Made by a program: the position numbers and the translations under genes
Shown here: piece by piece, positions 1 through 16,793 of the stretch
Layout: each line of letters begins with the position of its first letter
Position numbering within the stretch: position 1 is the first letter of the stretch
Notes under the pieces: model-generated
Databases searched by the model: none
Seen by the model: the letters and a program-made list of their open reading frames with translations, nothing else
What the model was told of the DNA's origin: nothing
IMG/VR virus record: IMGVR_UViG_3300020207_003211
Span: 1 to 36,717 of that record
Strand: one strand, 5' to 3'
Source: a virus
Length of the DNA: 36,717 nucleotides

Positions 1-684
1 TTAATTGTTACGATTAACGGTTACGCTACACCCACCAAAGGTTGAACAAATGCCTGTGATGCTGTAACTGTCAGCACTTGTTGTAACATTTTGATCTAAA
101 TCCAATGTGTATGCTCCACCTGAGTTTGTTAGATCTATTGCGGCACTTGCACTGTTGCTTCCGCGCTGATCAACATCTACTGTATGCCCATCACCTGTTA
201 GCACAATGTCAGCCCACTTAGCGCCACCATTACCTCTTTGATACAAATCAACAAAGTTATCGTCACCGTCTATTTCAACAAATCCGTCGTGTCCTGCTTT
301 GCCCATTTGAGTGTGTTTAACAAAGTTACCGTCACCGTCGATAATATTAGCAAGATGATGAGGTGCTCCGCCGCCTCCACCTCTGTTTGTGTCGGTTTGA
401 TAACTGTAGACTGTATTGCCGCTACCGTTTACAGTCCAATATGCTTCGTGGCCGCCGGTTTCGTCTCCGTCATATGTACCATCACTGTGTATACCTTGAC
501 GTATTGTAATGTCGTTGTTTGCACCTGTGCTTGATAAACTAACATACTGATCCTCAGACTTTTGTGTAACTTCTAAGTCAAGATTGTCGCCTGACTGTGT
601 AATGTATATTTCGTTAGCATTACTTTTGAATGATGTCAATAGTGTTGCTGCCAACACCAACACGATAGTCGTAAACTGCTTCAT
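1..684 (-). CDS. Curlin-like secreted amyloid protein, copy 2
   Basis: Probable curli fibre subunit secreted through the CsgG pore encoded upstream. The start at 684 is preferred over 714 because GGAG lies 7 nt before it and a signal peptide follows (MKQFTTIVLVLAATLL...SNA). The mature protein opens with NEIYITQSGDNLDLEVTQ and continues with short beta-strand repeats of the type I-x-I-x-Q-x-G / G-D-x-N-x-V, as in CsgA/CsgB. Glycine-, asparagine- and glutamine-rich strands run to the end. The mature N-terminus closely matches that of the curlin at 1758..2510, so the two are paralogs. It overlaps the FecR-protein gene by 65 nt and ends at the window edge. Individual repeats are degenerate, so assignment to CsgA rather than CsgB is not possible. 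Confidence 0.8.
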   Translation of the reverse strand: MKQFTTIVLVLAATLLTSFKSNANEIYITQSGDNLDLEVTQKSEDQYVSLSSTGANNDITIRQGIHSDGTYDGDETGGHEAYWTVNGSGNTVYSYQTDTNRGGGGGAPHHLANIIDGDGNFVKHTQMGKAGHDGFVEIDGDDNFVDLYQRGNGGAKWADIVLTGDGHTVDVDQRGSNSASAAIDLTNSGGAYTLDLDQNVTTSADSYSITGICSTFGGCSVTVNRNN

Positions 685-1756
685 CGCCTTGCTCCACGTT
701 AATTGTATATCCATAGTTATTGTGTAGGTATAAATCTATTTGATTCTCTACACTTGCATCTTCTCTTGTTACGTGATATCTGTCACCTTCTGTATCAAAA
801 AAGAATCCTGTCTTTTCATCATAGCCTGATTGTTGCACTGCCATTAGTTGTTCATTCTGTTTGTCTAGTTCATCTCTAAACAGTTCTGCTAGGGCACGAT
901 TTAACTCGTCAATCATATCAACTAATAGTTCACGCAAATAATAGTCTGCACCTTTATCTAGCTCTGTTACCCATATGTCTTTGATATCATCGCCTAGTAC
1001 ATCTTTGTCTAGGCCGTCAAACTCTAAAAAGTCTATTGCTAGGAAGTCTGTTTCTCTACCTTCCTGTGCTTGTATTTGTTCTGCTTGTTCAATAGGGTCT
1101 GTGCGTCTTACAATAAGCATACCTGTTATTTGCGGTTCTGTTAAATCAACTATGATAGGTTTGCTAGGAGGGCTACTCAAACTTGTTACTCTAGTCATTT
1201 GAAATGCTTGATTTAATATTACAATACCTGCATCATTCTCTACGCTAATCTCGCCTGTGACACATTCTAGTTCACGACCATTGCCATCGTACTGACAACT
1301 TGGCAGTAGGGTTACATATGATTCGCCAATTTCGTTTACCAGCATATTAAAGTCTGTACCGCGAACTGAAATAGTTGCGGTTGGTGTTCTTAGTCTTACT
1401 TTCTGTCTGCTGTTCTTTGCAATCTGTCCACTTGCATAACGAACAGCACCTAGGCTTGCACGAATGTCCAAACTACCTTTACCAGTGTTAGGATCATAAA
1501 CAAACTCGTCGATTACTACACGACTGTTATCAATAACATCTAGCCGTGTTTCATCAACAAAGTCTATTTGCATACGACCTTTGGTAGTTTCGGCGACATC
1601 CATCTGCTGTATTTCTACACCTACACTGTCGCCAACAACATTGCTGTCACGTTTAATAACACCCGATCCGTCGAGCGTTGTAACTGTGCCGATATTTGCT
1701 GCCGCTGCTGATGCAGTAGTCAGGAACGCAGATAAGACAAAACAGAGCAATTTCAT
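620..1756 (-). CDS. Periplasmic/secreted FecR-domain protein with C-terminal curlin-like repeat
   Basis: A signal peptide (residues 1-20, ending SAAAA) is followed by a FecR domain. The diagnostic stretch is residues 122-136, LRTPTATISVRGTDF, preceded by a beta-rich segment from about residue 25. The middle (about 215-320) is acidic and helical. The last ~30 residues read INVEQGDEAVYDYRVG then SNTIDIIQ, which fits one curlin-type repeat (I-x-V-x-Q-G ... N-x-I-x-I-x-Q). It lies between the two curlin genes in the csg operon, so it is probably exported with them. A nucleator (CsgB-like) or anchoring role is inference. FecR proteins usually transmit signals to ECF sigma factors, but no sigma factor or transmembrane anchor is seen here. 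Confidence 0.8.
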   Translation of the reverse strand: MKLLCFVLSAFLTTASAAAANIGTVTTLDGSGVIKRDSNVVGDSVGVEIQQMDVAETTKGRMQIDFVDETRLDVIDNSRVVIDEFVYDPNTGKGSLDIRASLGAVRYASGQIAKNSRQKVRLRTPTATISVRGTDFNMLVNEIGESYVTLLPSCQYDGNGRELECVTGEISVENDAGIVILNQAFQMTRVTSLSSPPSKPIIVDLTEPQITGMLIVRRTDPIEQAEQIQAQEGRETDFLAIDFLEFDGLDKDVLGDDIKDIWVTELDKGADYYLRELLVDMIDELNRALAELFRDELDKQNEQLMAVQQSGYDEKTGFFFDTEGDRYHVTREDASVENQIDLYLHNNYGYTINVEQGDEAVYDYRVGVGSNTIDIIQK

Positions 1757-1757
1757 A

Positions 1758-2510
1758 TTAATCGCTCTGTGTAATGTCTATCGTACTGCCATTCGTAGTC
1801 GCATCTAACACAACGGTTTTCTGTGCTGTACCACTTTGATCTATTGTAACTACGTTAGCCGCGCCATCAAGATCTAAATCAATTACGTGACCTGCACCTG
1901 ATGCTCCACCGTCTACATTAATATCAATGATGTTACCACCATTAGTAGTGCTTAGGCTTGCGTCATTAGCACTTGTAATTGATGTAGTATTAGTTGGCAA
2001 TGTATTAGTTACATCTACGTCAATAGTTGCATCAATACCGTCGATATCAGCGTCTACTACGTTGTCATCACCAGTAATAGTAAAGTTAACTGTGCTTCCG
2101 CCTGCGTCAGTGTTTTCACCAATATAAAACTTATAGGTGTTGTCATCACCTGTAGTTGTTATATTGAGTGTTACACTTTCACAGTTTCCGCTACCAGCTG
2201 TACCTAAGCTATCACATTTTAAATCTACTGTGTTGTAGTCTCCTGTGAATGCCCATGTACCAGTATAACTGTCACCATTTATAACTGCGGCAATATCATT
2301 ACCATCGCCAGTCTGTGTAATGCTAAACGTCATTAGATCGCCGTTTAGTGAAACTACTGTTGTTGAATCACCGAATTCGTTGCTCGCACCATCTTGAACT
2401 ATATCTAAATCTAAAGTATCACCTACTTGTGTAATATAGATATCGTTAGCCAGAGCTGGAGCTAGAAACAGAGTCATCAACGCCGATAATGTCAATGTTT
2501 TCAATTTCAT
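1758..2510 (-). CDS. Curlin-like secreted amyloid protein, copy 1
   Basis: Probable curli subunit. The start at 2510 is set by a strong AGGAGG 9 nt upstream and by the signal peptide MKLKTLTLSALMTLFLAPALA; the longer reading from 2558 would run deep into csgG. The mature N-terminus NDIYITQVGDTLDLDIVQ is nearly the same as in the other curlin of this operon. Many short repeats follow (GDGNDI, GDYNTVDL, GDDNTYKF, GDDNVVDADI, ... VVTIDQSG ... STIDITQSD), each fitting a beta-arch with Asn/Gln ladders. It overlaps the end of csgG by 65 nt and lies just upstream of the FecR gene. Confidence 0.82.
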   Translation of the reverse strand: MKLKTLTLSALMTLFLAPALANDIYITQVGDTLDLDIVQDGASNEFGDSTTVVSLNGDLMTFSITQTGDGNDIAAVINGDSYTGTWAFTGDYNTVDLKCDSLGTAGSGNCESVTLNITTTGDDNTYKFYIGENTDAGGSTVNFTITGDDNVVDADIDGIDATIDVDVTNTLPTNTTSITSANDASLSTTNGGNIIDINVDGGASGAGHVIDLDLDGAANVVTIDQSGTAQKTVVLDATTNGSTIDITQSD

Positions 2511-3318
2511 TTTGTTTACCCTCCTGGACTTGGAATTTCCAAAGTCCTTTGCGTTCACCTTCGTGAACTAGTTCTACGATACCCTGTTCAACAGCCGCCC
2601 TCACAGCAAAGTTGACAGGCTCATTGACTGAGAAACCTGTTTCAGTTTCTAGCAGTCTAGTTCCCATGTCTAAGAACCTAAATATGTCCGCTCCGGACCT
2701 GTGGCTTGCAATGGTTTTCTCCGTTGCTATACTCAGTAGAACCTTCCCTGTACTAACTGATACGATACGCATCACCACTGTTACGTTATCGATTCTGTAT
2801 TCGGTGCTTGCACCTATTCCAAAATAACTGGCTCCAACTCCTCCGACTGCTACATTGCTATCATATCCAACAATGCCGCCTTCGAGGATGAGCCCTGCAA
2901 ACAGCAATGGTTTCAAAGGTACTGCATTTTCACCTTCGTAATTTTCACGTGTCTGTCTAATAAGTTGACGCTCTTTGATAAGATTGTCCATACCTACACG
3001 TTCAACAACTTCAAACCATTGTCCGTTGCCCACCTCTTGTAAGGCTTTTATAACCCAGGCTTCTGAGCCTTGTGTGACTGCACTGCTTAAACTAGCAACC
3101 ATATCACTGGGTTTACGCTGTCCTGTTTTATCTGTAAAACTATAAACAGCGATTGTAATTTTTTCTCCATCTAATCCTGGCACATCTTCTAAACGTTTCT
3201 GTATAGGAGATGATTGAACCGTAGGCGACACTTCTGTATCCTTGAGTGTTTGTAAACTAGGATTCATTGCGCACCCTCCTAAGAGTGCCAGTGCTAGTAT
3301 GGCCGCAAGTGCTTTCAT
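2446..3318 (-). CDS. csgG: CsgG curli secretion channel lipoprotein
   Basis: Outer-membrane nonameric channel that exports curlins (type VIII secretion). It has a lipoprotein signal with lipobox LGGC (Cys16), then the CsgG domain: KITIAVYSFTDKTGQRKP, WVIKALQEVGNGQWFEVVERVGMDNLIKERQLIRQTRE, LLFAGLILEGGIVGYDSN and GASTEYRIDNVTVVMRIVS. The length of 290 aa compares with about 277 in E. coli. The C-terminus is extended by a Ser-rich tail (DDSVSSSSSG) that overlaps the next gene's signal-peptide region. The start overlaps the csgF stop by 1 nt (TAATG), so the two are translationally coupled. Confidence 0.95.
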   Translation of the reverse strand: MKALAAILALALLGGCAMNPSLQTLKDTEVSPTVQSSPIQKRLEDVPGLDGEKITIAVYSFTDKTGQRKPSDMVASLSSAVTQGSEAWVIKALQEVGNGQWFEVVERVGMDNLIKERQLIRQTRENYEGENAVPLKPLLFAGLILEGGIVGYDSNVAVGGVGASYFGIGASTEYRIDNVTVVMRIVSVSTGKVLLSIATEKTIASHRSGADIFRFLDMGTRLLETETGFSVNEPVNFAVRAAVEQGIVELVHEGERKGLWKFQVQEGKQNEIENIDIIGVDDSVSSSSSG

Positions 3319-3776
3319 TAGAATGAAAAATCTCCTGACGCTGGAATTGATAGTTCTGTTATTGTACCATCTTCACCTACAATAGTCAGTGTAATCATTC
3401 CATCTGCTTTGACCCAAGTTATAGTTGAGCCTTCGATTTCTGCTGTGCCTGTGTTAGAGCAACTGTCCGAACAATCAGCAAACATTGCGTCTACCATCTG
3501 TTTAGATATCTGTGCGTAAATTCTTGATTCTACGTTTTTTAGAAATTTGTTTAGTGTGCTATTTTCTAGCTCACGCTCTATACGTCTTTGTTCTGCTTCT
3601 GCTTTTGCTTTGATATCTTCTTTGCGGTTATGCTGTAACTGCTCAGTAGATAGTACGTGCGAACTGTACCCTTGTCCGCTGAATCGTGGATTTTTAAAAC
3701 CCCATACCATTTCTGTGGCATAGGCTGTTGAGCTAATCACTGAAAAAAATAAAAATGTGAATATTATGCCCTTCAT
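3318..3776 (-). CDS. csgF: CsgF curli assembly factor
   Basis: Surface-exposed chaperone that binds the CsgG pore and helps nucleate curlin. After a signal peptide (about residues 1-20) the protein reads TEMVWGFKNPRFSGQGYSSHVL, matching the CsgF N-terminus that plugs CsgG (F-x-NPxFGG pattern). A Lys/Glu-rich helix and a C-terminal beta segment (ITWVKADGMITLTIVGEDG) follow. It is first in the csg operon, with an AGGGG ribosome site 7 nt upstream and a late-type promoter at 3830-3837. The length of 152 aa is normal for the family (E. coli 138). No csgE, csgB or csgD is visible in the window. Confidence 0.88.
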   Translation of the reverse strand: MKGIIFTFLFFSVISSTAYATEMVWGFKNPRFSGQGYSSHVLSTEQLQHNRKEDIKAKAEAEQRRIERELENSTLNKFLKNVESRIYAQISKQMVDAMFADCSDSCSNTGTAEIEGSTITWVKADGMITLTIVGEDGTITELSIPASGDFSF

Positions 3777-3790
3777 ATATACACCCCTGT

Positions 3791-3837
3791 ATTACCGCGC
3801 AAGAGGTAATTCTCTTGACACTACAACTATATTTATC
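3791..3837 (-). promoter_or_regulatory. Late-type promoter and inverted repeat before csgF
   Basis: On the minus strand GATAAATA lies at 3830-3837, a one-mismatch fit to the T4 late box TATAAATA. Between it and csgF is a perfect 6-bp inverted repeat, ATTACC (3791-3796) and GGTAAT (3805-3810), with an 8-nt loop in the leader. It would place the whole curli operon under late control. Confidence 0.55.
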
Positions 3838-3868: not shown

Positions 3869-5272
3869 TTATTTTTTGCCGATAGCGAATGCCATCTTGC
3901 CGCCAACACGTGAACTATAGTAGTTCTTGCCGCCTTCGAGCAGCACTTTGCCTGAGAACGTAGGAGGATAAACTGCATTAAACTGACCTAGTACAGCATC
4001 GTTACCGCGCTTGCCCATCTTAGTGTATAGCTGAATAATATCTGATTGATTTAGTAGTGCAATAGCACCTTTAGAGAAGTTGTCTTCTGCATTAACAACC
4101 TTTGCACAAGTTTTACTAACTGCACTTAGTAGTGCATAACCTGCATTAAAGCCCTTTGTTTCTAATTTAACGTTGAAAGGTTCTAGAATTTTTTCAGCTT
4201 GTGGACTCAAATTCTCTAGATCTGCTTTACCTTCTCTGATATACTGATCAATTTCTTCTTGAATACTTTCATCAATACCGTCAATGCCTAAGAACTGGGC
4301 TACTTTAACTGGACCATTTACTGCGGTTTCGGCTGCAATAATTGTAACCAACTTCGCAGCAAAGTCAGCAACTCCGCCTTCTGCTACAATTTCATTACCG
4401 TTCTTTTCGGCTTTTTTCACAGCATCGTGTAGGTTCTTTGAACTAGCTGCTGCACCTTGGCCGCCTTTAGAACTAATGCCAATTTCAGCACCATTAGGTG
4501 CAATCATAAACGAGTCACATAGAGCAGCGTTCATACTCATCGGCCACATAACTTCACAGTCGCGCCACTCAGCACCATCTGCTAGTTGTTGTCTAGCATC
4601 TTCTGCTTGTCCTTTGATTACTCCGCCCATTAGTGCAACAGGTTGCATAATCTCACCGAAGTAATCTCTAAGAGCTGCTTGCTGTTCATACATTTCTGGA
4701 AAAACAACATCGCCGCGGCCTTGTGCTAGATTTTGTAGTGCTTCTTTAAATACTTCTTTTACTTGATCGTCTGCCTTAGATACTACTGTATTAATAATAC
4801 TGTCAGTACCTTGGAAACGCTGTTCTGTAGCAATAAGATGCTGTGGATCATATCCTGATGCAAACTTTTGTGCGCCTTTGGTTTGCAGTGCCCAACCTGG
4901 AGGAACTTGTTTATTAGCCCAAGCACCCATCATATCAAAGCTCACGCTTTGCATATACTTGCCCCAGAAAACGTGATTGCCGTCTTGATCGTCTAATTGT
5001 GCAATGCCAAATGCTAACATATTACGAGCAGGTTTGTTAACCCATTCAATCTCTGCGCCACCATGTTCTTCTTGAAAAGACTTAATTGCAGCATCACGGT
5101 CTTCAGGTGTTTCAAATTTTTGTGTTTGTGCATCTGGAAATGCAACTACTTGTACAATAGAATATTCACGACCGTCTTGGTGTGTAAATTTATCACCCTC
5201 GTTACGACCAAATAATCCTTTTGATTCTTCTAGTTTCTTTGTTTCTACAATTTTAAAATCACTAAAGCGCAT
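3869..5272 (-). CDS. Large late protein, possible capsid-internal protein
   Basis: 467 aa, not recognised with certainty. The N-terminus MRFSDFKIVETKKLEESKG resembles other proteins of this phage (MRFFEFK...). It contains (L/I)xE sites (IVE 8-10, LEE 14-16) like those cut by T4 prohead protease gp21 in packaged internal proteins. The body is mixed alpha/beta with no membrane segment. A conserved-looking stretch GAEIGISSKGGQGAAASSKN near the middle faintly recalls nuclease (D/E)...K motifs, but this is too weak to call. It has its own late promoter at 5295-5303 and AGGAAG before the start, so a virion or injected protein is likely. Confidence 0.6.
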   Translation of the reverse strand: MRFSDFKIVETKKLEESKGLFGRNEGDKFTHQDGREYSIVQVVAFPDAQTQKFETPEDRDAAIKSFQEEHGGAEIEWVNKPARNMLAFGIAQLDDQDGNHVFWGKYMQSVSFDMMGAWANKQVPPGWALQTKGAQKFASGYDPQHLIATEQRFQGTDSIINTVVSKADDQVKEVFKEALQNLAQGRGDVVFPEMYEQQAALRDYFGEIMQPVALMGGVIKGQAEDARQQLADGAEWRDCEVMWPMSMNAALCDSFMIAPNGAEIGISSKGGQGAAASSKNLHDAVKKAEKNGNEIVAEGGVADFAAKLVTIIAAETAVNGPVKVAQFLGIDGIDESIQEEIDQYIREGKADLENLSPQAEKILEPFNVKLETKGFNAGYALLSAVSKTCAKVVNAEDNFSKGAIALLNQSDIIQLYTKMGKRGNDAVLGQFNAVYPPTFSGKVLLEGGKNYYSSRVGGKMAFAIGKK

Positions 5273-5294: not shown

Positions 5295-5303
5295 GTATTT
5301 ATG
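5295..5303 (-). promoter_or_regulatory. Late-type promoter CATAAATAC
   Basis: The minus-strand box CATAAATAC lies 23 nt before the start codon at 5272, leaving room for a short leader with the AGGAAG ribosome site. It differs from T4 TATAAATAC by one base. Confidence 0.65.
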
Positions 5304-5991
5304 CAAGTTTAGGAAACAACATATCACGACAGAATATCTCTACGTCTTCTTCAGGCAATCCTAATGATTTCATAACTGCTGGAGTATGTGGGTTTTGTTG
5401 CTGATTATGACAGTAATAATCTTGTGATGCAGCAACTATTTCTCTAGTAGAATTTCCATCTGACTGTGGCACTTCTTCAAACCAAGCACGTAGATTAGCA
5501 AGAGCAATGTCAATAATTGCACACGCTTCTTCTTCTGTGTTTACATTACCTGCGGCAAGCATTTTATCTGTAAAAATGTTACGTGCCCATTCTGGCAGTT
5601 CACGCTGCTTCTTAGGAATAAAGTCTTCTACGCTTTCTTTATATCCATCAATCATAGGATGGTCTGGATCAGCACTAGGACTAAAGTCGTGGAACGCACC
5701 TGTCATTTTATTTTTGCCAGCAATAACATCAAAACCGTATATAGGTGCATCGTTGTTTAGGTTTGGAAAACAGCATACATGCATCATCCAAAGACCTTTA
5801 GTCTCACGGGCGTCTACAACATCGATATGAGCGCGACGAACAGACTTGTTAGCCCACACACGGTTAATCCAACCAGAATCAGGTTGGTTAAATCTGTCCA
5901 AGCCCTCTTCTTGTATTTCTTCCGCATAGTCATTAAAAATATTTATTATTTCAGCCTGACAATTAATCAGATGATTCCATATAACGCTCAA
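5299..5991 (-). CDS. pcyX: Ferredoxin-dependent bilin reductase, PcyX/PebS type
   Basis: Reduces biliverdin to an open-chain bilin with electrons from ferredoxin. The central family signature is present: GFDVIAGKNKMTGAFHDFSP, with His101-Asp102 at the position of the catalytic Asp region of FDBRs. At 230 aa it has the usual length. It directly follows heme oxygenase with a 29-nt overlap, so heme to biliverdin to bilin is encoded as a unit. The only plausible start is TTG at 5991: a stop lies two codons upstream, and GGAG sits 7 nt before the TTG. I recall PcyX (a four-electron enzyme making phycoerythrobilin) from uncultured marine myophages beside a heme oxygenase. The choice of PcyX over PebS rests on this context, not on alignment. 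Confidence 0.85.
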   Translation of the reverse strand: MSVIWNHLINCQAEIINIFNDYAEEIQEEGLDRFNQPDSGWINRVWANKSVRRAHIDVVDARETKGLWMMHVCCFPNLNNDAPIYGFDVIAGKNKMTGAFHDFSPSADPDHPMIDGYKESVEDFIPKKQRELPEWARNIFTDKMLAAGNVNTEEEACAIIDIALANLRAWFEEVPQSDGNSTREIVAASQDYYCHNQQQNPHTPAVMKSLGLPEEDVEIFCRDMLFPKLA

Positions 5992-6532
5992 CGTCTAACT
6001 CCATAAGATCTTGAAATAACTTAGTTGCAGATGTAAACATCCATTGTGCTTCTTCTGCCATGTCATCATTTGTTTTTGCTCTAATAGCTTCTTTAATTTC
6101 GTCAGTATCGCCGTCGAACTGATACATGCGACCTTCACCTGGAACACGTTTTGCAATCATCTGTCCGCCACTTAGGTCTCCCATGTGCAATACATAAACA
6201 TGTGCCATTAGGGCTTCTGGATTAGTCATTAGTTCTTTAATATGAGCAATATATTCTTCAGTACTAGGAACAAGTTGAGGTGGAGTGTCATGCTTCCATA
6301 ATTCTATAAAGTCTTGTTCAATGCGTTGCTTACGTCTAATGTCTGCTGGAATATCATTAAACAATCCCATTGCACCTGCTAGTGCTTCTAGTATATCATA
6401 TTTTTTATGCTGGTTCCATAGATATGTAGCATAAAAGTCTGGATGTATTTTACCACTCATTAAAACTTTAACGAACTCTTGTCGTTCTGCGTTTTTATGA
6501 TGTTCCCATGTTAGGTCTTTTAAATTACTCAT
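5963..6532 (-). CDS. ho1: Heme oxygenase
   Basis: Cleaves heme to biliverdin, CO and iron. The proximal His is His12 in the motif H-K-N-A-E near the N-terminus. The distal-helix signature GDLSGGQ lies at residues 118-124. The length of 189 aa is slightly below bacterial and phage HO-1 proteins. The ATG at 6532 is used because it overlaps the clpS stop in an ATGAGTAA arrangement; the longer reading would need a TTG at 6541. The gene supplies biliverdin for the bilin reductase that overlaps its 3' end. Confidence 0.93.
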   Translation of the reverse strand: MSNLKDLTWEHHKNAERQEFVKVLMSGKIHPDFYATYLWNQHKKYDILEALAGAMGLFNDIPADIRRKQRIEQDFIELWKHDTPPQLVPSTEEYIAHIKELMTNPEALMAHVYVLHMGDLSGGQMIAKRVPGEGRMYQFDGDTDEIKEAIRAKTNDDMAEEAQWMFTSATKLFQDLMELDVERYMESSD

Positions 6533-6839
6533 TCGGCTCAATTCTCACTTGTAAAGGAAATCCGCTTTGTCTCGAAACATTTGTAGTTTCTGCAGATTTC
6601 TGTTCAGCTATTTCATAACTGTATATACCTGCAAGACCGCTTCCTTCGTTGTGAATTTGAAGTGTAATTTTTTTCGCTGTTTCTTCTGAATGATTGTAAA
6701 TAACTTTTAAAATATCAATTACCCACTCCATCGGAGTTGCATCGTCGTTGAGCATTACAACTCTATACTTGATAGGTTCTTTAATATCTTTTTTAATTTT
6801 TTCATCAATTTTGATGTCTTCTAAAATTTCTGAACTCAT
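6525..6839 (-). CDS. clpS: ClpS adaptor
   Basis: Adaptor that delivers N-degron substrates to ClpAP. The ClpS fold is clear: KYRVVMLNDDATPMEWVIDILKV, then TLQIHNEGSGLAGIYSYEIAEQK. The binding-pocket residues Asn31, Asp32, Asp33 and His63 align with E. coli Asn34, Asp35, Asp36 and His66. At 104 aa it is normal length with a Lys/Asp-rich N-terminal tail that would contact ClpA. It has GGAG before the ATG and an 8-nt overlap with the heme oxygenase. A phage copy could redirect host proteolysis during infection (inference). Confidence 0.95.
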   Translation of the reverse strand: MSSEILEDIKIDEKIKKDIKEPIKYRVVMLNDDATPMEWVIDILKVIYNHSEETAKKITLQIHNEGSGLAGIYSYEIAEQKSAETTNVSRQSGFPLQVRIEPNE

Positions 6840-16534: not shown

Positions 16535-16793
16535 ATTTTTGGTAACAAGGTATAACTACCCCGTAGCGATCAAGCCGCTAGTGCAAAATTATCGTTTGCG
16601 TTTGTTTTGTTTGCTTGATTTACGGTCATCGCCTACCGGTAACTCCACGTTCTCTATTACGCCTGTCGATCCTAAGTTCGGCCCCATCATAAACACACCA
16701 ATTTCCTTCATCTAGGACCATGATGTGTTTATGGTGGAGCCGCCGGGTACCGCCCCCGGGTCCAGTTCGTCGTTGATTGGCTTCAACGTTACG
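16535..16793 (-). ncRNA. ssrA: Circularly permuted two-piece tmRNA
   Basis: Rescues stalled ribosomes and tags nascent chains for proteolysis. Gene order is permuted as in alphaproteobacteria. The acceptor piece (about 16732-16793) ends CGGCTCC-A-CCA at 16732. A 46-nt spacer (16686-16731) folds back on itself (CATAAACACA / TGTGTTTATG). The coding piece begins GGGGCCG at 16685. GGGGCCG pairs with CGGCTCC (one G-U) as the acceptor stem. GGATCGACAGG follows, as expected after the tRNA-like 5' half. The tag frame at 16570-16614 reads ANKTNANDNFALAA then TGA, inside a helix-5-type hairpin (TAGCG...CGCTA). A T-arm CCGGG-GGCGGTA-CCCGG precedes the acceptor strand. Mature outer ends are approximate. 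Confidence 0.92.

Follow-up and report, generated by a model that had tools for sequence, protein, structure and literature searches.

The virus record IMGVR_UViG_3300020207_003211 of the IMG/VR database, analysed here over its whole length of 36,717 nucleotides (hereafter the window), carries at one edge an operon related to the curli (type VIII secretion) systems of bacteria. Five consecutive head-to-tail open reading frames (ORF) on the minus strand, encoding CsgF, CsgG, a curlin, a FecR-domain protein and a second curlin, constitute a single operon at positions 1-3776, in agreement with a preliminary description of this DNA, which had also reported a T4-late-type promoter box in front of csgF that is indeed present. 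In this work we analyze the operon together with its phage and bacterial relatives, and we put forward that its FecR protein is exported and has a C-terminal tail resembling curlin, and that in relatives it is encoded alongside a CHASE2 cyclase.

Curli-type export genes behind a late-type promoter

The features of the locus are as follows.
3830..3837, minus strand: T4-late-type promoter box GATAAATA, 7/8 bases of TATAAATA, 61 bases before csgF
3318..3776, minus strand: csgF, exported extracellular pore partner with a cysteine (Cys) pair (Pfam CsgF, 1e-15; 23-sequence alignment)
2446..3318, minus strand: csgG, outer-membrane curli export pore lipoprotein (Pfam CsgG, 1e-51; LLGGC lipobox)
1758..2510, minus strand: curlin1, predicted exported curlin-like amyloid subunit (alignment; AlphaFold; Curlin_rpt 0.007, under the cut-off)
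620..1756, minus strand: FecR-domain protein with signal peptide, FecR domain, helical linker and curlin-like tail (Pfam FecR, 3e-9; alignment; AlphaFold; Foldseek)
620..826, minus strand: C-terminal tail of FecR (residues ~311-378), curlin-like, with the end N-T-I-D-I-I-Q-K (pattern; profile and hhalign comparison; structure model)
1..684, minus strand: curlin2, with a C-terminal Cys pair and its stop codon at the record's edge (Pfam Curlin_rpt, 2e-11)

A Pfam search of the five proteins matched CsgG, CsgF, FecR and, through Curlin_rpt, curlin2 (44 bits, 2e-11, above the cut-off), with curlin1 falling below the cut-off. The identities assigned to CsgG and CsgF in the preliminary description hold: CsgG aligns over its length with the solved CsgG of Escherichia coli (201 bits), including the barrel-strand region on which that description had made its reading depend, and its lipobox, an outer-membrane lipoprotein signal, is found in 80/84 relatives, while CsgF aligns with bacterial CsgF in the set of 23 sequences and gave no match to the PDB by phmmer. 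Curlin1 begins, in its mature form, with the conserved motif AN[DE]IYIxQxG and contains a single Cys pair, and its AlphaFold model is an all-beta fold (predicted local distance difference test, pLDDT, 84.8; predicted template modelling score, pTM, 0.80) for which Foldseek returned weak, low-probability matches only; searches of PDB sequences with the FecR and curlin1 profiles returned nothing significant. Counting cysteines after residue 25, relatives have exactly two in FecR (88/91), curlin1 (84/86) and csgF (63/79), and an even number in curlin2 (46/48), where a C-terminal C-x(n)-C motif is kept in 36/39; such pairs fit oxidised, exported proteins. The pore and subunits of curli-type export are therefore well supported, and the curlins presumably form amyloid. 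The claim of a complete export pore with its own curlins stands for the pore, CsgF and the exported curlins, but "complete" is too strong, as CsgE was not found among the operon genes with Pfam; it is likewise absent from published phage modules and has been described as non-essential (PMC7029224). At the curlin2 position, the curlin is very short in many of the loci numbered L060-L120 (about 111-121 aa) and 220-500 aa long in others.

Beyond the operon, the window holds T4-like phage genes encoding ribonucleotide reductase subunits, an exonuclease, an endonuclease, an endolysin-like protein, 2OG-Fe(II) oxygenases and a PAAR protein. This gene content and the origin of the sequence in a virus record answer the concern, raised at the outset, that the operon might lie on a bacterial contig, and unnamed phage families already exist in PHROGs for CsgG (5e-86), CsgF (5e-49) and FecR (2e-93). 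The record opens with the stop codon of curlin2 and closes with the start codon of another gene; the operon is therefore cut at the record edge, and its sixth gene, a CHASE2 cyclase in relatives, is missing from the window. These borders suggest that the record was trimmed at gene boundaries, and the cyclase and other downstream genes may have been cut as host-like.

The same operon is known from HTVC008M, from other pelagimyophages, from Melnitz and from podophages, so that what the preliminary description had found was already published in 2020-2022, and the window adds a distant new member to this group: tblastn recovers the same genes in the same order in HTVC008M (CsgG 55% identity) and in four Melnitz isolates (53%). 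We take the reports PMC7029224, PMC9004378 and PMC9599517 to be those of Zaragoza-Solas et al. 2020, Buchholz et al. 2022 and Wittmers et al. 2022, respectively. The pelagimyophage operon was reported together with a proposal of "sibling capture" (PMC7029224), and the accessible text of PMC9599517 identifies CsgA/B, FecR, an adenylate cyclase and a histidine kinase, reads FecR as an iron-dependent regulator and places FecR and the cyclase outside bacterial curli operons. A search for an infection transcriptome of a curli-bearing pelagiphage yielded one study, covering HTVC022P and HTVC027P, with no mention of csg genes.

Two scans of IMG/VR returned 120 related loci, some of them near-identical or from one contig. 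The box NATAAATA occurs in 50/82 distinct csgF upstream regions of these relatives (-160 to +30), against 0.034 expected per such stretch and strand, and it is not seen upstream of csgG (0/84) or FecR (0/83); 20/65 cyclase genes are preceded by a box of their own. The excess before csgF lends good support, at the level of sequence, to late timing of the operon. As far as the contigs reach, the order csgF-csgG-curlin-FecR-(curlin)-(cyclase) is kept in the 116 FecR-bearing loci, apart from three with an inverted cyclase and one with the cyclase upstream; of the 87 loci in which the cyclase is present as well, most have a curlin-like ORF after FecR. Ratios of nonsynonymous to synonymous substitution rates (dN/dS) between the window and near relatives, at 0.08-0.18 for csgF, csgG, curlin1 and FecR, indicate that these genes are under selection.

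For Melnitz, csgA and csgB were stated to be lacking, and CsgG was proposed to act in lysis, as a pinholin-like or secretin-like pore setting its timing (PMC9004378). We consider this quite improbable, notwithstanding the late-type promoter and the pore-size argument made in its favor. The proposal depends on the absence of csgA and csgB, and two curlin-repeat proteins, along with a FecR protein, are annotated in the Melnitz record as deposited; the curlins are present and conserved under selection, CsgG is an outer-membrane lipoprotein with the CsgG fold, whereas pinholins are small inner-membrane pore proteins, and the window carries its own endolysin-like gene. A phage-specific loss of CsgG constriction residues was considered and rejected, since similar replacements are found in ordinary alphaproteobacterial CsgG, and a remodelled lysis pore is accordingly not supported.

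The FecR protein and its curlin-like tail

The preliminary description had named FecR and given it no explanation. In the FecR protein a signal-peptide-like start precedes the FecR domain (residues 57-143; Pfam, 3e-9), and the main domain has its Foldseek matches among anti-sigma domains of the FecR/PupR type. Near its end, the pattern N-x-[IL]-x-[LM]..Y-x-[IL]-[ND]-x-x-Q..G..N-x-I-x-I-x-Q is present in 91/91 distinct phage FecR proteins, the most divergent tails being those of the L036/L037 type, and Q356, I373 and Q377 are invariant in an alignment of 48 FecR sequences. A hidden Markov model (HMM) of the curlin2 C-terminus scores above 10 bits on 28% of the FecR tails, compared with 44% of recognised curlin1 proteins, 0/1000 shuffled tails and 0/50 FecR bodies; matches extend to about 1% of the remaining ORFs, and the top ones (over 50 bits) resemble further curlins. 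Profile-profile alignment of the tail with the curlin2 C-terminus by hhalign reached 79% probability and a score of 28.9, the maximum among 60 column-shuffled controls being 13.2, and an HMM of the curlin1 C-terminus matched the FecR tails more weakly than the curlin2 HMM did. The AlphaFold model of the tail has six strands (pLDDT about 85-94), with a strand-loop-strand spacing near 20 residues, as at the C-terminus of the curlin1 model. The resemblance is seen only with profiles derived from the phages' own curlins and lies below detection by Pfam.

FecR proteins of the FecI/FecR type have an N-terminal cytoplasmic sigma-binding region and a transmembrane helix. Neither was found in the phage protein, in which the FecR domain begins near residue 57, the N-terminal signal is present and there is no conserved second hydrophobic segment. 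No FecI sigma gene was found in the operon or the adjacent genes, in a Pfam search that covered part of the window's ORFs. By its sequence, FecR would thus be an exported protein that carries a curlin-like tail and is devoid of FecI-type anti-sigma features. A Cys pair (C154, C165) is invariant in the phages and absent at that site in three bacterial relatives.

These properties bear on a plain account of the operon, in which late curlin fibres serve aggregation ("sibling capture") or block superinfection, and FecR and the cyclase regulate expression through iron or cyclic AMP, as in the accessible text of PMC9599517. The gene content and environmental transcripts given there are in line with it, as is the FecR domain itself. 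An iron regulator is nonetheless difficult to reconcile with the signal peptide and the lack of a conserved cytoplasmic region of anti-sigma type, with no FecI-type gene seen beside FecR, and with a C-terminus that is curlin-like; the promoter is of the phage late type rather than that of a host regulator, and the nearest named NCBIfam models, far under their cut-offs, are those of the surface proteins Lsa33/LipL45. We regard this account as unlikely.

CHASE2 cyclases and cellular sister operons

The cyclase that follows the operon in HTVC008M, in Melnitz and in the loci L004, L126 and L131 combines a CHASE2 domain (1e-29 to 1e-41) with a class III cyclase domain. Published phage systems have an adenylate cyclase downstream; the window record stops at the last codon of curlin2. 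In its nearest relative, L004 (CsgG 89% and FecR 81-82% identical), two other genes separate FecR from the cyclase. Neither of these is a recognised curlin, and one has an outer-membrane-barrel-like end. This protein (L004:5612-7084) has relatives in L020, L023, L050 and L107; all are exported proteins of 490-676 aa whose C-terminus is typical of outer-membrane beta-barrels, and their genes are inserted ahead of the cyclase, after FecR (or curlin2). The catalytic asparagine is kept in the HTVC008M-like clade of cyclases and is serine in the clade of the window's relatives and Melnitz, the other motifs remaining in most. The cyclases at L003:12625-14676 and L004:7679-9718 and their clade, which bear this Asn-to-Ser change, differ in catalytic-domain motifs from the HTVC008M-like clade.

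Pairing of FecR with CHASE2 extends beyond phages. A FecR-domain neighbour is found at 4 of the best 30 alphaproteobacterial CHASE2 loci retrieved and at none in 872 kb of control loci, and a Burkholderia operon with a LysM-FecR protein and a CHASE2 kinase has been linked to biofilm (PMC5192318), so that the adjacency is a recurrent, not a general, pairing. Conversely, CHASE2 was found beside 0/19 generic FecR loci and beside none of the short Caulobacteraceae FecR loci, and the link is thus specific to some FecR genes. FecR of the full phage type, tail included, is rare, occurring in 2/199 Caulobacteraceae genomes and in 1/385 sampled Alphaproteobacteria, the latter being one of those same genomes; the other FecR matches in them extend over no more than the FecR domain, in many cases within very large proteins.

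Among the best 80 bacterial CsgG loci, FecR is present on three contigs, from two Caulobacteraceae metagenome-assembled genomes (MAG) and Hyphomonas sp. TMED17 (L126, L127, L131), and all three hold csgF-csgG-curlin(s)-FecR-CHASE2 cyclase, flanked by glycosyltransferase, phosphoesterase, TonB-receptor or FAA-hydrolase genes. In a CsgG tree, the 26 phage-type sequences form one clade (100/99) whose sister comprises these three loci and L180, and all together are split from other bacterial CsgG (100/99). With the same module accompanied by a sister CsgG in Caulobacteraceae and Hyphomonas, FecR and the cyclase probably arrived as part of it rather than being phage additions, and we argue for acquisition of the entire module from a curli lineage of Alphaproteobacteria; the tree is midpoint-rooted, and the direction of transfer is therefore not proven. 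Phage-type csg genes also occur on short contigs binned with a Pirellulales MAG and a Pelagibacter MAG (L124, L125), which are probably phage contigs.

A tail ending in the terminal N-x-I-x-I-x-Q unit, as in curlin1, and a gene located between two curlin genes could also mean that FecR is a minor fibre subunit or CsgB-like nucleator exported via CsgG, with the cyclase as an independent hitchhiker. The large folded FecR domain with its invariant Cys pair would be hard to pass through CsgG, and FecR and the cyclase consistently stay together in phages as well as in bacteria, which makes this explanation improbable in our view.

A candidate curlin sensor and known curli systems

The model that we favor, and whose chances we see as about even, is that of a six-gene curli-type module of T4-like marine phages (csgF, csgG, curlin1, FecR, curlin2 and CHASE2 cyclase), of which the window holds a truncated copy. 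Late in infection, CsgG and CsgF would assemble an outer-membrane pore through which the two curlins would be exported as amyloid-forming subunits. FecR, exported by Sec, would act as a periplasmic adaptor, its curlin-like tail binding or joining curlin and its FecR domain contacting the CHASE2 sensor of the membrane cyclase, such that curlin level or fibre growth would be converted into a cyclic nucleotide signal in the cytoplasm. The benefit would most likely lie in surface fibres that either retain cells or debris in the vicinity of the progeny or form a shield around the infected cell.

Several observations weigh against this model. Curlin1 scores under the Curlin_rpt cut-off (16.7 bits, 0.007), and Pfam Curlin_rpt makes no call on the FecR tails, either alone or within the full proteins; the likeness of the tail could be one of convergent beta-repeat composition, and the Hyphomonas FecR (L131) lacks the curlin-like end. 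The window itself holds no cyclase gene, alphaproteobacterial FecR-domain proteins are mostly not beside CHASE2, and the serine that replaces the catalytic asparagine in the cyclase clade of the window may mean that signalling there is weak or lost. Finally, the sole infection data found, for Melnitz, describe infections without clumping (PMC9004378).

More tentatively, and with rather less confidence, we suggest that marine phages and a few Alphaproteobacteria share a distinct branch of curli with its own feedback, in which a periplasmic FecR tail would detect or seed curlin and report through the CHASE2 cyclase; the phage would import an export machine together with its sensor, and the reading of FecR as an iron regulator would be wrong. 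Phage curli in the ocean's most abundant bacteria are a known puzzle. The elements that are new here, namely the curlin-like tail of FecR, its consistent CHASE2 cyclase partner and a rare sister operon in bacteria, replace a loosely defined "regulator" with a sensor model that can be tested. They also touch on two conclusions in the literature, namely that bacterial curli operons have no FecR or cyclase and that curlins are missing from Melnitz.

Compared with the published pelagimyophage and podophage systems (HTVC008M, Melnitz and HTVC023P-type; PMC7029224, PMC9004378, PMC9599517), the window has the same csgF, csgG, curlin, FecR and curlin, which are followed there by the cyclase, but its CsgG is 53-55% identical and its record is cut before the cyclase. 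The upstream histidine kinase described for podophages is not seen among the window's three upstream genes, which instead encode a bilin reductase, a haem oxygenase and a protein without assignment. The latter (3869-5272, minus strand; 467 aa), directly upstream of the late box, has relatives in few loci and no match in Pfam, PHROG or NCBIfam; the ferredoxin-dependent bilin reductase and haem oxygenase pair (5299-6541, minus strand) is also upstream of csgF in many relative loci. Permuted transfer-messenger RNA (tmRNA) genes have been published for Melnitz and its relatives, and the window contains one at 16570-16792 (minus strand) according to Rfam (115.7 bits, cut-off 47), ARAGORN making no call. 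The unannotated record OR851715.1 (Salmonella phage S.Kent 1-2-1, 1499 bp) encodes a CsgG 43% identical to that of the window, and the distant CsgG-like proteins of Brevundimonas and Caulobacter jumbo phages (ON529851-60, JX100810; 27-29% identity) are a separate phage CsgG case.

The cellular operons of Caulobacteraceae and Hyphomonas share csgF-csgG-curlin(s)-FecR-CHASE2 cyclase and a supported sister CsgG with the phages, and differ in placing both curlins before FecR (or having one only) and in a FecR without the phage Cys pair. The curli system of E. coli (csgBAC / csgDEFG) resembles the phage module in its CsgG pore, CsgF and exported curlin repeats, whereas CsgE, CsgC and CsgD were not found in the phage module, FecR and a CHASE2 cyclase are added, and the phage curlins and CsgF have Cys pairs. 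The Burkholderiales LysM-FecR/CHASE2 histidine kinase biofilm operon (PMC5192318) likewise encodes an exported FecR-domain protein beside a CHASE2 sensor, but it has no curli genes, a kinase in place of the cyclase and LysM in place of the curlin-like part.

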